From the NCBI GenBank assembly GCA_038093975.1, contig JBBPTG010000086.1:1-64000 (forward strand): a stretch of 64,000 bases of DNA. The letters run 5' to 3'. The stretch comes from Chalciporus piperatus (taxonomy: Eukaryota; Basidiomycota; Agaricomycetes; Boletales; Boletaceae). The notes below the pieces were generated by a model. It was not told the DNA's origin, ran no database searches, and saw only the letters and a list, made by a program, of their open reading frames with translations. Below, in pieces: positions 5,873 to 36,029 of this stretch. A program made the position numbers and the translations under genes. Position 1 is the stretch's first letter, and each line of letters opens with the position of its first letter.

Positions 5873-8253
5873 TCATCCGTCCATGCTGAACAACTCGTCG
5901 TCGTCGACGGTGACGAGCGGCCGGCTGAGCGGGCTGAGTGCATTTTGGGTATGCCAGTTCCGGCTGCTGTTCGCACTCGAATGAGGGGGTGTGCGGAGAG
6001 GCGTGTTCGTCGGCGGGAGTCTCGAGAACATGTTCTCGAGAGCTGCCATCGAGGACGAGAGCGGGGCACCAGACGACGACGACGATGGTGGGTGGCCAGT
6101 TCCGACGTCGTGGTGGTGGTGGTGGTGGTGGTGGTGTGCAGAAAGGGACAGATGGGAGATCGCCTCGGTGGGGAGATGTGCGAGGTTGGATTGAAAATGC
6201 CATTCCTGACTCAACCCAGAACCAACGTTGATACCGAACGGTACGGGGCCGTGGCTGGGGCTGAACGTACCGCCCACGCTTGATCCCCCGATTGAGCCGG
6301 GGGATCCTGTGTGCGGGACGGCGTGGATGCGCGAGTAGCCAGCTGCGAGACCCTGAGGGAGACTCTGGCCGGGTGCGTGCGCTTGGAGGGCACGGATGGA
6401 AGGGGATGCAGCTTCTCCGAGCCCGAGACCTATTCCTGCACCGTTATTTGCGTTGGTGCGTCCTTCGTCGGCAACAGGTCCGTGTATGGGAGCGTGAGAC
6501 AATGGCGAACGGCTCAGTCCTCCGAATCCACCTAACCCAGCACCAAGTCCTAGCCCAGCACTGGGTGCACGTCCGTTGCTTGCCGTGTTCATCTTGGAGT
6601 AATAGTGGTGAAGACTTGGGAGGAAGGCGGCAGACGCATTGGATGGTGCGAGCAGAGACGACGAAGCGAAGTGTGGGTCGTCTCGGAAGGGACTCAACCC
6701 CGTTCCAGACGGGACAGTGCTCCCTATGTTGTTATTGAGGGAACCGAAGCCGTTGGAGGATTTGAGAGAGCCAGGCGTTCCTGAGCCTATCGCCCCTGCA
6801 CCGAAGCTGTACTTGTCTGGAGAGCCAGGGATCCCATTGGCAGTAAGACCACGCTCCGCCCAGATAGACTTGACATCACCCAGAAGCGAAGGAGCAGGTA
6901 CGGAGCGTGAGTATCGGTGGTGTGCTTGGGTTTGTGAGAGGTGGGACTGGACAGCGGGATGGGGGGACGGTGAGTCGTTCAAGTTGACAGGACGGGAGGA
7001 TCCCGAGTGTGTGCGAGACATTCGCCGAGAACGCTCCGAAGGAGTCAGGAGGTCCGTAAGCGAAGATGGTAGGAATTCCTCTAGATCTACATCTGTAGAG
7101 GGACCATCTCGGTCTTTGTCCACAGATATACTGACATCAATCCCTGGGCTCGCCCTGGAGGTGAGGGGCTGAGTGGGGACCGATCCAGGTTCCGTTTTCC
7201 ATGGCTGACTATGGGTGTGTCCGAGAGAAGAAGAACCACCGGCTCCCACACCAAGACCGAGACGATTCCTAGACTCGGTGAGAAGGGACGTCTGGGCGTG
7301 GAATGTCTGGGGAATTCCAAGATTCTGAGGGAGGGTGTCTGAGGAAATCGAGGAGTGACTAGGCAAAGATCCTCGTGGCGGGGAACCAATGGGTCCAAGA
7401 TCAGTACCATCGGGTGGAATTACAGAACGTCGAGGAACACTGGGGACGTTGAGAGGCAGGGTGGGGGGAGATGGATTTCGGGTCCTGACAGGAGATGAGG
7501 CCTCTGGAGAGGGTTCCAATGGCGGAGCAGGTTGAGATCCTTCTTGTTGCTCAGGATCCGACTCCTGTTTCGAAGTCTCGATGTTGGCAGTGGTAGCAGT
7601 AGTATTATCAACATCGTCCGGAAGCATGAAGGGAGGAAAATCAGTATCTTTCAAGGGAGGGGCGGGAGCGGAGGGAGATATGGTCGCCTTGAGCGAGATC
7701 GAAGGGCGAGTCGAAGTTGTGCGGGTAGGAGCCGTCGAGCCAGAGAGAAGACCCGTGCGAGAACTGACAGGGGGAGTTGTCGACGAACTATGGGCATGAG
7801 CCGGATAATTTGGATCTCTCTTCCCTCCTTTCGAGTTCCTCCCTTCTTTACTCGCTCCACCGGACGCCCCACCGTTAGCCGCCAACTGGGCGGCCTTCTT
7901 GTTTTTACGATCCATAGACATGCTCTGTCCGGGAAGGACATGGGCTAACGCACACTTATGACCGAATTTGCAGTTTCCCTTTACGAACCAAGCACAGACG
8001 TCTTTTTGTTGACCAGGCTCGTGGACGTAATGCGAGAACGGACATGAAGAGCCGGCTGTACAAGCACCCACTTTGAAGAACTTGCAAGGGACATGGGAAA
8101 GGTCCTTTGCTGTATTCGAGTCGGTTAGAAGAGGACGAAAGGGAAGAGGATAAGATTAATACATTTGGAAGAGGACGACTTTGATTTGTGGCCTCTTTCG
8201 TTATCGGTGTCCTTGTCGAGTTCTGCAGGATCGGGCTTTGGTGTGGCGGACAT
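5873..8253 (-). CDS. Tandem CCCH zinc-finger protein
   Basis: Probable RNA-binding protein of about 765 residues. The start at 8253 gives a short first exon (MSATPKPDPAELDK...), then one intron (GTATTAATC...ATACAG) and one long exon. Two zinc fingers follow at once near the N terminus: C-x7-C-x5-C-x3-H in CKFFKVGACTAGSSCPFSH and again in CAWFVKGNCKFGHKCALAH. The rest is low complexity, rich in Ser, Pro, Gly and Thr, with a nine-His run encoded by a GTG/CAC microsatellite near 6109-6136. The finger pair preceded by SKDLSHVPC resembles yeast Lee1 and fission yeast Cps3, so a post-transcriptional role is the best guess. The tail shows no domain and is probably disordered. Confidence 0.85.
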
Positions 8254-8779
8254 TGTGAAAGAAAGATGGTAAAAGACCGAGGAGTACACTCAAGTCAAAC
8301 TCGATGAAAAGTTTAAGAGAGATTCGAGTCGCTGCTTGACCAAGCAAGCCGCTCAATAATGGAATTATACAAAGATAACATAATCCTTGCATAATCCAAT
8401 CAAAAATAATTATAACCACTGCACGTCAAATACCACCATACTCGAGCAAGCTACGACTGCGTTCTTCTTTCGTTAATCAAAACCTATGCTACTCAGGAGT
8501 CGCGGGCAGGAAAGTTGGTGGTTGTCACTACACCATCGTACACCAGCTCAAAGTCCGACATGTTCTCCTGGTCGCTCCGCTGTAACAAAGAAACCCCAAC
8601 ACTGAATAGCATAACCACATGGCGTGCTCATGAATGGCCACTCATCCATCGTTGGCGGAAACGCGGACGATATGAATTAGTGTCCGTTGTATCCCTTGTC
8701 ATAGGACGAACGACTCTCGTGTCTACCACCGCCCAAGGAGAGTAGCGGCTCGGGTCAAGTGGTCTTGGATCCAGATCCA
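8254..8779. other. Intergenic, CCCH gene promoter side
   Basis: Between the start of the CCCH gene and the edge of the GH47-A duplication. I see no supported gene or RNA. It should contain the promoter of the minus-strand CCCH gene. Confidence 0.4.
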
Positions 8780-9090
8780 GATGCTCAACAATGAGCTTCA
8801 GGCCTCCCTCGCCGCTGGCAAACGCTCTATCATTACGTCTTGCCTTTACACTTCTCGGTCGGTATCACATTATCAGTGTGTACAACCTCCACGCTATCAT
8901 CGCTGACGATCACTGTAATCCGAAAGTGAACTACTATTATGATCATCTGACGGTTTCTATCAATCCCCCATCCTTGTCGTGCTCTTCCAAGGTAAACCCG
9001 GACAGCGGATAGACGGAACAAGGGAGATCTCATGGTGATGTGTACGTTCGATAAGGTCAGACGATGTAAGTTCATATGTACTAATACGAA
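8780..9090 (+). pseudogene. Relic of the Sos7-like gene next to GH47-A
   Basis: Words such as CTGGCAAACGC, GTCTTGCCTTTACACTTCTC and ACAACCTCCACGC, then a TATGTACTAATACGAACGATGC block, align with the equivalent relic beside GH47-B. The latter block also matches DNA at the end of the intact Sos7-like gene at 25490-25550. The reading frame is broken and much of the gene is missing, so no product is expected. Confidence 0.6.
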
Positions 9091-9557
9091 CGATGCTTCC
9101 ATCGTCACCAGATAATCCGCTCGCTTCGAAGTTCAAGCAGCCTACCTCAATGGTTTGATCACATGTCCGACCCACCGGGGCCCGGAACATATGGAGGAGG
9201 GGAGCTTCCTCATCTCCATTCGATCGCCTAATGGAGAGAATTATGCCAAGACGCTGCCACCATGTCGACGAGTCTGAGCTTACCTTAGTTCGCACAGCTA
9301 GCGACACGACATGTTTCAGCTGACTCTAACATCAGAGTTTCTGGAGATGTTTGGTCTCTGGACACTCTGCTGTCACTCCAGCGATCATTAACCGGCGTCA
9401 TTGCATGAGAAATCAACATTCTTCTGATCATCGATTCTGGGTCAGATGGACGGTAAGTGGGACTCATGATCTCTGAGCACTCACATGTTTGAATTCTTCC
9501 AGATCATCTGGTCGCAGCGTACATGTGATGCAGAACCACGCATGCTAACCAAGGGTT

Positions 9558-9563
9558 TATAAG
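9558..9563 (+). promoter_or_regulatory. TATA-like box of GH47-A
   Basis: TATAAG lies about 75 bp upstream of the GH47-A start codon, within a GGTTTATAAGTATG context. A similarly placed TTATAAG is seen ahead of copy C and TATATAA ahead of copy B. Confidence 0.45.
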
Positions 9564-9634
9564 TATGACACCACTGGTTCGATAATTAACCGCGCTCTGC
9601 TTTTCAAGCTCTGCATCAAACTTGATCTCTCGCA

Positions 9635-12036
9635 ATGTCTCTTCGTCGTTGCCTGGCGCTCGCGCTCGTCGCTGTCGCGAATGGCGCACATGTCCAGAAG
9701 CCGGGCTTACAACTTCCGTCAACCGCCGCTGCCCATCAGCAGGCCGTAGTTGATATCTTCAACACTTCATACACCGCATACAAGTGCGTTGATTTGAACT
9801 TGTGTGGGTGCTCGACTTATGCTACCTACAGGCAATATGCATGGGGTCATGACGATCTCGCACCAGTCTCCGAGTCGTATATTGATGCGCGGAATGGATG
9901 GGGCGCGTCCATTGCCGATGCGTTGGGGACCCTGGTTTGCGTTCCGTCATGCACCCGAGCTTCCGAGCGACTGACGTCTGCTTTCGTAGTGGCTCATGGG
10001 TTTCCGTGACTGGTTTAGTGAGGCGGTCGAGTACGTTGGAACTGTGGACTTTAGTAGGTCGCAAACGGACGCTACTGTTAGGTCAGGATCTATTTCTCCA
10101 TCAAGTTCGTGACCATCTCAACATCTATTGCTAGTCTGTTCGAGACGACCATCCGTTATGTCGGGGGCTTCTTGAGCGCCTACGAGCTCTCTGGATATCA
10201 ATATCCTGTATTGGTCCAGAAAGCTGAAGAAGTCGCTCAACAAATGGCGTACGCATGGACTGGGGTTAGTTACTATGCACCGCGTTTTCGTAGCAGCTTG
10301 GGTGATCTAGATCATTTAGAACCACTCAATTCCTTATGGTTTTATCAACTTCACCGACCACCAACCCACGATCGCTACGGTGAGATTTATGCCATCGTGG
10401 TTTCCGAAAGGTGCTATGCTTACTGAAATGAACTATCCAGTCGAACATTGCTGAAGCTGGCACTGTGAGTTCTTTGTGCGGGTGTTTTCATTGGGTGGGA
10501 TGACTTAGCGCATGGTTAGCTGACCATGGAGTGGAATCGTTTGAGGTGAGACGAGTTCCTTGCATATCGCTCACGTCCGAGGCTAAGCCATCGATAGCCT
10601 GTACACCAAGAATGACACCTACCGTCAGCTCGCCGAGAAATCGGTGCAGTATATGATCCACATGGTAATTCCTTGTACCTTTCCGCTAGATCATGGTCCA
10701 ACGCCGCCGTATCTGAATATGTAGCCGGCACCATTGCCTGGTATTCCTGCGCAGCTCATTGACCCCACGACCGAAGATTCTGTGGGTTCATATGTGGTAA
10801 GCGTACTACGTGATGATTGCTTGGTAGTTCTGTCCGCTCATCAATCGCAGTCGTGGGGTGGAGGATCAGATTCATACTTGGAATACCTGATCAAGTATCC
10901 TCGGCTTACGAACACGGCTGATAATTCGTATGCGGACGCCTGGTCCACCGCGGTGGATACCTCTCTTCGTGACCTGTTGCGGGTACGTCCGCTATATTAC
11001 GGTGTGCTGAATATATTCTGACGATTTTGATGATCTTGCGCTAGACCTCGACGGTCGGTAACTGGTCCTACCTCGCCGATTACGATGGCAGTCAGATTCT
11101 TCACGTCGGCTCACACTTGGCTTGTTTCTACGGTGGTAACTGGATTCTGGGTATGTCGTCATCGATCCTTGGTCGGAACCTTGCTCAGACAGCTCCAGGT
11201 GGTAAACTCACGAACAATGATACGATTGTCAACATTGGACTCCAGCTCACGGACGCATGCTGGAACACTTATGCAAGTACCGCGTGAGCATCTTTCGTTT
11301 CAGACAACTTTGAGAGGTATACTGACCAACTTCGATAGAACTGGCATCGGCCCCGAAACCTTTGCGTACATTTCCAGCGATGGAAACTACACTGGTGGTG
11401 ACCCCATGACCGCAGAACAGATCCAATACTACGAGCAACATGGTAACTACATCACCACCCCCTACTACATCCTTCGTCCCGAGGTCCTCGAGTCCAACTT
11501 TTACGCATGGCGCGTGACTGGTGACACCAAGTACCTCGATAACGCTGCCAGCGCCATCCAGAGTTTCCAAAAGTACCTCCCCACGACGGTTGCGTACACT
11601 GGAATCAACGACGTGAATAACGTCGCTTCGAGCAAGATTGATGATATGTGGAGTTTCTGGTTGGCAGAGGTGCTCAAGTATCTGTGGGTGTTTTCAGCAC
11701 TTCTTTGTTGTTGAAGACGCACAACACTGAACATCAACTTTCTCGCAGGTACCTGACTTTCGATGACCCTAAGAAGATCTCGCTCGACGATTGTGAGTTG
11801 GTGTGCGAGGAAGCCGTAAATCGTGACTGACGATGAGCGCATCGGTTTCAGACGTGTTCAACACTGAATGTCACCCGTTCAAGGCGCCGCCTACTAAGCC
11901 TGTTTATGGCTCTGGTCCAGGACCACATGGGGTCTCGACCCCGCCTTTCATCCCGCATACGACTCACGATGGACCTCTTCCTGTTATTTCACCGAATCCT
12001 TTGTTGCCCCCGACCCTCGGTCGGGCGGGTAATTGA
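9635..12036 (+). CDS. GH47 alpha-1,2-mannosidase, copy A
   Basis: Class I alpha-mannosidase, which trims alpha-1,2-linked mannose from N-glycans; secreted or secretory-pathway. A signal peptide (MSLRRCLALALVAVANGA) is followed by family motifs spread over about a dozen exons: YAWGHDDLAPVSESY, DARNGWGASIADALGTL, VSLFETTIRYVGG, LTMEWNRLSLYTK, WGGGSDSYLEYL, TGIGPETFAY, RPEVLESNFYAWRVTGD, and YVFNTECHPF near the C terminus, whose Thr sits where the family binds calcium. The family usually has NTEAHP; here it is NTECHP. After this comes a proline-rich tail of about 46 residues, absent from copy C. A 48-nt intron follows the WILG codons (see findings). All exons can be read, so I regard the gene as intact. 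Confidence 0.9.
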
Positions 12037-34088: not shown

Positions 34089-34097
34089 AATACACAC
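34089..34097. repeat. Target-site duplication, left (AATACACAC)
   Basis: The nine bases AATACACAC directly abut the outer end of the left terminal inverted repeat and are repeated exactly at 36021-36029 outside the right one. Confidence 0.85.
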
Positions 34098-34201
34098 TAG
34101 TCTGGTAACCAGCCCGTCTATGAGGCAAGCCGTCGATAGACGGTCTGGTAAATTTGGGAGTGGCGCAAGGGGGGTGAGCGGATCCGCACGATAACGTGAC
34201 C
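34098..34201 (+). repeat. Left terminal inverted repeat, 104 bp
   Basis: Starts TAGTCTGGTAACCAG and ends GCACGATAACGTGACC. Within it, ACCAGCCCGTCTAT and ATAGACGGTCTGGT are near-perfect reverse complements 14 bp apart, so the repeat itself can form a hairpin. Confidence 0.9.
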
Positions 34202-34324
34202 CTTGTCCAATAAGATAACTCGTGTTTTCCAATGAAAAACATTCTGGTATCATTTACCATTCGTCCTCGAAATTAATTAAGGGTGCTATCTCGACGCGTC
34301 GACGCTTCTATCAATCCGAGTCCT

Positions 34325-34830
34325 ATGGACGACGAGCTCGTTGCGCCGTTCGTCAAGGCAGTTCGGTGGGCTCCGTTAGATGTCCTTATCCAACTCTCGT
34401 CAACGTTAATCAACGATCGACTGCCCCACGATTACCTGGCGACACTGAAGGATGACGATAAACTCGACGCGCTCCGAGCATGTATGATCGTGGCGTTCCT
34501 TACCGAAGGACGCGTTGTACCACGCGTTTTTCAGCTTCGGGCTTCCCTCGAGATGCTACACCAACACGACAGTGTCATTATTGCCGGTACTGGCAGTGGG
34601 AAGACATTATGCTTGTTGATACCAATTCTACTTCGTCCGGAGTCGATATCCATAACTATATCTCCGTTAAAATGCCTCCAAACAACTCAGGTGAGATGAA
34701 GAATAATGCTCATTGTGGGAGATAGGTACTACCATGATCCAGATGCTCGAGAGTGAGAAGTTTCGGATCAAAACAATCGCGATAAATGAGGACACTCCGG
34801 ACGACGAAGACCTCTGGAAGGTGAGTCAAG
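34325..34830 (+). pseudogene. RecQ/DEAD-type helicase, N-terminal fragment
   Basis: The frame from MDDELVAPFVKAVRWAPLD reaches a helicase start: VFQLRASLEMLHQHDSVIIA, then AGTGSGKT (Walker A, motif I) and ITISPLKCLQTTQ (motif Ia region). After a probable intron comes IKTIAINEDTPDDEDLWK. All later motifs (DEAH/DEAD box, motifs III-VI) are missing. The intron join is out of phase by my reading, which suggests decay. Known full-length relatives are multicopy in Agaricomycete genomes. As a fragment it cannot be an active helicase. Confidence 0.65.
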
Positions 34831-34849
34831 CGGGAACTTGAACTATGAT

Positions 34850-35922
34850 GCGAGTATTTTATTAAGCGAGTTTGATCTCGTAGAGAATCGCAAACGTGCC
34901 GGACTGAACTTTTGCGGGTGCAGAATCTCGCTGTTCGACGAATATCGATGTCTTGATGTTGATGTTATCCCAACAGAGAACGTGAAGACCGCGAGCAATA
35001 CAACGAGCACGCTCGAGGCTCTCCGACGCGAGTTGCTTCAGTAGCTTGGTGAGCAACGAGAATGATACACAAAGTCCACATTTGTGGAGGGCCTCGATGG
35101 TCTGACATGAAGCTCCATTCGTCCAAAGGAAGAGCGTGAAGGGTATTGCAAAGAATTGAGCCTGCTGTGATCGCTCCTTAGCGAGTTGGGTGACGGGTCA
35201 CGATAACATTGCAGGCCTTCGAAAAATTAATCTATTGGAGTTCTAAACGAAACAGATATGTCTATGGTGACACACGACTTAATCTTATTATGCTCCTTTG
35301 CACGTTTCGTCTCCGCAGCGACCTGGAGGATGTGACCGAGGGTCGGGGCACTGCTATCGACAAGCGGACCGATAAACACGTCGACGTCCCACGTCAAGAG
35401 GCTATCTGGAGTTGTGGTGTTGATTGTCCATGCGAGCGCATTCTTTATCTCGTCCATCTCTCTTGCGATCTTGTCCGAAACGAGCTCGATAGCGTCACGG
35501 TGTGGTTCCATGCAGGAGAGAAAGGCGACACGACCTCGTTTATCTCCAAAAACGCGGTCTAACAGTTTGGTCAACTTGCCAGACGGGTTGGCGAAGAAGC
35601 GGTCCAGATAGATCACAAATTCAGCTTTGTCCGACTGCAGGATGTGAAGGACGAAGTCGAGGAGTGATATGCGGCCATCCCGAAGGATTTTCAATGCTTT
35701 TCGAAGGCGTTTGTCACGACTGTATCGCGCACTGTCCACGGTCTCATCGTCGGAGTCCATGATGTTGATGTTCTGTGCGAGGGATGACTTGGGGATGAAG
35801 GGAGTACGTTGTGTAGGCTTACGAGGAGACTTAGCAGGGCTTAGATAAGAGGTTATCCTACGGTAGCTACGGGCCGGCTGTCTTACCAGGAAGAAAGGTC
35901 CAAAAAGAGACTTGACGGTCAC
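34850..35922 (-). pseudogene. DUF6589-like protein, N-terminal part
   Basis: A minus-strand frame begins just inside the right inverted repeat (MTVKSLFGPFFLVRQPARSY) and runs as one exon to about 35227: SRDKRLRKALKILRDGRISL, LLDFVLHILQSDKAEF, SGKLTKLLDRVFGDKRGR, LTWDVDVFIGPLVDSSAPTL, HILQVAAETKRAKEHNK. A second stretch at 35056-34862 continues ERARCIARGLHVLCWDNINI and FVEQRDSAPAKVQSGTFAIL. The LLDF..., W.D.....AP..., and WDNINI...FVEQR wording is that of a multicopy Agaricomycete family that I place, from memory, with DUF6589. The remaining C-terminal part is lost. It may be transposon encoded. Confidence 0.6.
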
Positions 35923-36020
35923 GTTATCGTGCGGATCCGCTCACCCCCCTTGCGCCACTCCCAAATTTACCAGTCCGTCTATCGACGGCTTGCCTCATAG
36001 ACGGATTGGTCACCAGTCTA
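35917..36020 (-). repeat. Right terminal inverted repeat, 104 bp
   Basis: Reverse complement of the left repeat with five substitutions (outer end TAGACTGGTGACCAA on the minus strand). The DUF6589-like start codon lies within its inner edge. Confidence 0.9.
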
Positions 36021-36029
36021 AATACACAC
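36021..36029. repeat. Target-site duplication, right (AATACACAC)
   Basis: Exact copy of 34089-34097, directly outside the right terminal inverted repeat. Confidence 0.85.

Follow-up and report, generated by a model that had tools for sequence, protein, structure and literature searches.

What kind of transposon leaves behind long terminal inverted repeats (TIRs), a 9-bp target-site duplication and the broken beginnings of two inward-facing genes? The question is raised by an element at positions 34089-36029 of a 64,000-nucleotide stretch of Chalciporus piperatus DNA (contig JBBPTG010000086.1, positions 1 to 64,000, forward strand; hereafter the window), in which one gene remnant is of RecQ/DEAD helicase type and the other resembles the Pfam family DUF6589 (PF20231). 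We propose that the window element is very probably a non-autonomous, internally deleted member of an AcademH-type group, the autonomous form of which would carry convergent genes for a RecQ-like helicase and a DUF6589 transposase. What is new in this account is that DUF6589 is likely a DDE (Asp-Asp-Glu) transposase and that the ends likely form hairpins.

The element proper is 1,923 bp long (34098-36020), and the limits of 34089-36029 given in an initial annotation of this DNA are correct with the duplications included. Repeat comparison placed the left TIR, which starts TAGTCTGG, at 34098-34201 on the plus strand and the right TIR, which starts TAGACTGG on the minus strand, at 35917-36020. 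The two repeats of 104 nt differ by 5 mismatches and the 9-mer AATACACAC adjoins both outer ends exactly (34089-34097 and 36021-36029), both as annotated; the chance of one such exact match is approximately 4e-6 at the local base composition. No empty paralogous site for the window insertion was found in this genome, as the 300-bp left flank is single copy, without a second match, and therefore provides no site for comparison.

At the left end, the 5' part of a RecQ/DEAD-type helicase gene lies at 34325-34820 on the plus strand, with the Walker A motif GTGSGKT and with the later motifs missing. Its frame (34277-34696, plus strand) matches PF00270 (DEAD) with an E value of 1.5e-7, which bears out the helicase that had been proposed there, and coding continues to approximately 34820 beyond a putative short intron near 34691-34727, the phase of which is tentative; the start Met and the intron limits were judged by eye. 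From the right end, two coding stretches of the DUF6589 gene are read on the minus strand, the first (35230-35760) from the Met of MDSDDETVDS with weak DUF6589 similarity, and the second (34865-35197) with the block containing the first catalytic Asp (CWDNINIK). Neither stretch scores PF20231 alone in a Pfam scan: the first frame (35227-35940, minus strand) gave no Pfam match above the cut-off, its best being NAT with an E value of 0.035, and the second (34862-35197, minus strand) gave no Pfam match. Compared directly with DUF6589 proteins, the first frame is again weak (best BLASTP 5.2e-4; phmmer none at E 1). The second stretch aligns with a best BLASTP E value of 3.2e-11 among 120 proteins, over a region that leads up to the first catalytic Asp and contains it, and it also matches sites directly upstream of PF20231 matches in the same genome (on contigs C34, C215, C391, C168 and C360). 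When the whole element was searched by tblastn with 240 DUF6589 proteins, 9 of the 240 matched at 1e-3. The DUF6589-like label that had been given to the right-hand frame is right because the second stretch aligns both with DUF6589 proteins and with these same-genome sequences. The two remnants face inward and, as had been described, break off where they meet, at approximately 34821-34864, which we take as the junction zone of an internal deletion (exact base approximate).

A search of the 35.5-Mb assembly with the TIR, as the initial annotation had suggested, found further copies with 9-bp duplications. There are at least 41 matches for the TIR and at least 40 for its first 64 bases (scored from 40 of 60 candidates in the first case and 40 of 58 in the second). 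Twelve two-ended copies were read, namely the window, L027 and L041-L050, leaving aside approximately 15 one-sided matches among the 41 TIR matches and an end pair on C132 (counted by eye); L047-L050 share only about 56 repeat bases with the window TIR, at 93-95%. Exact 9-bp duplications flank all 12 of these copies with window-like ends, and their sequences differ among sites. Five copies (on C86, C119, C221, C77 and C1) are each exactly 1,923 bp and differ pairwise at 4-10 positions. Because these five share their internal structure at different sites, we infer that the deleted form itself moved recently. A chance repeat was also considered and is ruled out by the five near-identical copies, which sit at separate sites between 9-bp duplications of their own. 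Among the 16 variable sites of the five copies (34229-35712), 14 are transitions, a pattern that cytosine-methylation decay or a process like repeat-induced point mutation would give. The C132 pair, two window-type ends that face each other in a span of about 127 bp (G000:C132:13483-13609), may represent a minimal end pair, similar to a miniature inverted-repeat transposable element, or a nested end.

This assembly yielded no full-length parent for the subfamily to which the window element belongs. Outside the five copies, the nearest relatives of the helicase frame are 57-71% identical (C26, C351, C19 and C91), those of the first DUF6589 frame reach at most 76% in pieces, and those of the second at most 75% over short stretches; those that we read proved short or broken in their turn. 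On C91, the element L021 retains a left end and both gene starts, without a recognisable right end, and another helicase gene begins there.

Judged by sequence comparison, a sister family with the ends TAGTCTCGAACC appears to display directly the proposed passage from parent to internal-deletion derivative. Its member L024 is 5,631 bp long and carries both genes, and L038 matches both ends of L024 over 821 and 1,007 bp at 99.1-99.2%, with the middle missing. L055 has the same structure as L038, and L054 is a third derivative with a different middle sequence. Three of these four (L038, L054 and L055) have exact 9-bp duplications, and L024 has none. The comparison of L024 with the shorter L038 and L055 upholds the earlier description of the window element as an internal-deletion derivative. 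A piece of the sister-family repeat also lies just past the right edge of the window (G000:C86:64568-64610).

The pairing of the two genes extends beyond this family. The genome contains 46 PF20231 matches, and we tested 23 loci chosen around DUF6589, helicase or repeat matches, a survey that left out the DUF6589 sites on C60 and C102 and the second site on C219. DUF6589 matches are present at 21 of the 23, and a helicase, recognised by PF00270/PF00271 and by RecQ relatives, is convergent with DUF6589 at 12 of these 21, by position and orientation only (L022, L023, L024, L025, L028, L032, L033, L034, L038 and L039, and weakly L036 and L040), as expected from the earlier proposal that the helicase and DUF6589 form the gene pair of longer elements. 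Both genes between one pair of ends are shown only for L023, L024, L025 and L028, and for the derivative L038. Among the remaining nine loci, the helicase side is cut by the contig end at L026, L030 and L035 and by the limits of the stretch at L051 and L052, and no helicase is present within the stretch examined at L029, L031, L037 and L053.

A related element, X, may have inserted into another member of this group. The sequence CCATTCCCC adjoins one end of X on C215 and the other on C391, and it is present once at the corresponding place in the uninterrupted copy L024, which thus represents an empty site; the element hosting X carries GTGGTTAGG at both ends, on C360 and C391. This arrangement is consistent with a nested insertion rather than proof of one, because the ends of X lie on different contigs and the other end of X on C215 has a different flank. 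The nested two-gene elements are apparently scattered over L025 (C215:6883-12646), L026 (C391:2284-4058) and L056 (C360:9300 on), and a misjoin or a collapse may have produced the C215 contig. Two further loci have features of their own. L028 (C234) carries a deeply diverged DUF6589 lineage (proteins P0121-P0240) and a helicase of its own, and its termini differ (GTCTGC...). At L033 (C62), perfect inverted repeats of 54 bases (8597-9901) flank a helicase match (8651-9847), and a further partial copy of the repeat is found at 6264-6306.

Structure prediction indicates that DUF6589 is likely the DDE transposase of these helicase-encoding transposons. The best structural matches of the predicted structure (model m1a47649526fa) are Hermes, the P element and RAG1, and the residues D223, D392 and E637 are conserved in two diverged DUF6589 lineages, as aligned from every third sequence (33 + 37) of 99 + 110 proteins. 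The earlier statement that no DDE transposase is visible in the element fails on these two grounds, DUF6589 itself being predicted to be one. A helical insertion before the catalytic Glu is a feature of hAT, P element and RAG1/Transib transposases, and hAT and P elements make 8-bp duplications. The DUF6589 model shares with these systems the RNase H core and the insertion, whereas its sequence identity to them is approximately 7-11% and the ends are different. We also looked for the C/DxxH signature described in the accessible part of PMC9587614 and rejected it: H427 is conserved, but three positions ahead of it P0001 has G and L028 has E instead of C or D, as judged by eye. A sequence search with P0001 against solved structures returned two matches with E values of 0.024-0.03, Lmo1026 and Lin1025 protein.

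The predicted DDE fold of DUF6589 argues against a Mutator-like element (MULE) that captured pieces of helicase and DUF6589 genes and is moved by a MULE transposase, an explanation that we regard as very improbable. The long TIRs and the 9-bp duplication would fit a MULE, for which the available portion of PMC6446971 gives duplications of 8-11 bp, and the genome has two MULE-domain (PF10551) matches, of which that on C18 passes the cut-off and that on C270 does not. However, neither C18 nor C270 is among the TIR matches listed, and the domain scan of L023, L024 and L028, which covered part of their frames, returned DEAD, Helicase_C and DUF6589, with no MULE domain and with all others sub-threshold. 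The initial annotation had set a MULE transposase between such ends against its two-gene model; this was looked for, and none is present in the frames scanned from these three loci.

AcademH is said to have been introduced as a lineage of the Academ superfamily by Kojima in 2020, in Mob DNA 11:15. Among the published descriptions, each available in part, AcademH duplications are given as 9 or 10 bp and those of AcademX as 3 or 4 bp, a difference tied to the encoded helicase versus nuclease (PMC10045372). Helicase domains are reported from fungal AcademH, and AcademH from Basidiomycota, Ascomycota and Mucoromycota (PMC10799480); domains such as DEAD and recQ_fam are present in the majority of fungal Academ copies (PMC6416283), Academ is placed among the superfamilies with a DDD/E transposase (PMC9587614), and putative non-autonomous Academ and MULE elements are widespread in Marasmius oreades (PMC8290104). 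The elements described here resemble AcademH as thus excerpted in being DNA transposons of Basidiomycota that encode a helicase, with a DDD/E transposase by prediction only, and with 9-bp duplications in 12 of 12 window-like copies and in three of four sister-family members. The undescribed or distinct type that had been announced for this locus is therefore not supported, since a helicase, a DDE transposase and 9-bp duplications together are the description of AcademH. AcademX belongs to the same superfamily, with a nuclease instead of a helicase and 3-4-bp duplications (PMC10045372, as excerpted); the duplications here are 9 bp, and no XPG or other nuclease domain scored above the cut-off in the frames scanned. 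The likeness to AcademH is a match to published descriptions rather than to Academ sequences, and the window copy is a deletion derivative. Among the copies read, no contiguous two-gene element has a matching duplication: the duplication expected of AcademH is missing in the long copies L023, L024, L025 and L028.

We consider it decidedly unlikely that the helicase and DUF6589 define a distinct, undescribed superfamily that merely resembles AcademH. Such a superfamily would agree with a likeness judged by description and with the absence of DUF6589 from the literature searched, in which the single PF20231 paper concerns unrelated optics. It would also agree with the relatives of DUF6589, since the named ones are all fungal among the matches listed (120 of 171, and 120 of 132 for the diverged lineage; some are nameless), and the title of the AcademH paper reportedly also names animals. 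The diverged-lineage search gave no link to Academ through animal or XPG-bearing relatives, and none of the 120 matches listed, out of 132, showed a second Pfam domain. On the other side, the AcademH traits that can be read in the available descriptions (a helicase, the DDD/E class, a 9- or 10-bp duplication and occurrence in Basidiomycota) are all found here. Identity with KolobokH, a fungi-only form of Kolobok with a RecQ helicase, is extremely improbable. The available text of PMC9587614 does describe a RecQ helicase and a DDD/E transposase in these fungal DNA transposons, as in the elements here, but KolobokH is excluded because its duplications are TTAA, whereas the 15 duplications that we tabulated are 9-mers of mixed sequence; in addition, the genes here are convergent.

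For the AcademH-type element that we favour, the autonomous form would encode a RecQ-like superfamily 2 helicase and a DUF6589 DDE transposase, convergent between inverted repeats. The transposase would bind the ends, excise the element and insert it elsewhere through joins staggered by 9 bp, which would produce the 9-bp duplications seen in the sequence, and the helicase probably aids strand opening or end processing. In the window copy, an internal deletion would have removed the 3' parts of both genes and kept both ends. The deleted copy would then have spread to at least five sites using the proteins of another element, a spread in trans to which the five near-identical copies at five sites point.

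The ends themselves suggest a further feature of this system. The repeats begin TAGTCT (or TAGACT), and in single-stranded DNA folding a hairpin starts from approximately nt 11 in 21 of 25 ends; these 21 come from the window family, its relatives and the sister families, including both window ends (folded as 34098-34161 and 35957-36020) and ends of L024, L025, L038 and L051. In the window, the left hairpin (34108-34149, plus strand, repeat nt 11-52) has a folding energy of -11.8 kcal/mol and a z-score of -3.89, and the right hairpin (35969-36010, minus strand) a z-score of -3.80, with 0 of 200 shuffles as good in either case. All 11 shuffle-tested ends, which were chosen after the folding results from the 21 hairpin ends and thus leave out L023 and L028, fold better than their shuffles (z -2.89 to -10.09, 0-3 of 200 as good). 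The four ends without such a hairpin are both ends of L023 and both of L028.

In the sister families, the folds also pair the terminal AGTCT bases with AGACT just beyond the hairpin, and the stem sequence varies from family to family, and from one end of an element to the other, with the pairing kept. Across six sister-family ends, 88% of stem cells are paired versus 78.5% in shuffles, both partners are changed in 9 pairs (mean of shuffles 4.8; 1 of 500 shuffles reaches this number), and there are 11 further pair types (shuffle mean 8.2, reached in 22 of 500). The covariation score is 0.283 versus 0.105 in shuffles, with 0 of 500 reaching it, and falls to 0.099 or less when the partner is slid by 1-3 columns. 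Because the six ends are related to one another and one of them supplied the structure, these values are suggestive evidence of a stem maintained by compensatory changes; template switching that copied one arm of the palindrome into the other would give the same picture. Little stem variation is seen in the window family, and between its left and right ends repeat positions 4 and 47 change together (TAGTCTGG...GGTCTGG versus TAGACTGG...GGACTGG). One may speculate that the ends are functional DNA hairpins, with the RecQ-like helicase opening the ends and the DUF6589 transposase recognising or processing the extruded hairpin. We hold this to be rather unlikely, and its weight is lowered because the L023 and L028 ends show no hairpin. 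If true, it would mean a helicase-assisted DDE transposition with structured ends.

DUF6589 is listed in Pfam as a family of unknown function, is frequent in mushroom genomes and is mostly annotated as hypothetical; the results presented here give it a likely function. As the genome of C. piperatus contains young derivatives together with several long two-gene relatives, it becomes possible to test what the helicase and the hairpin ends do.
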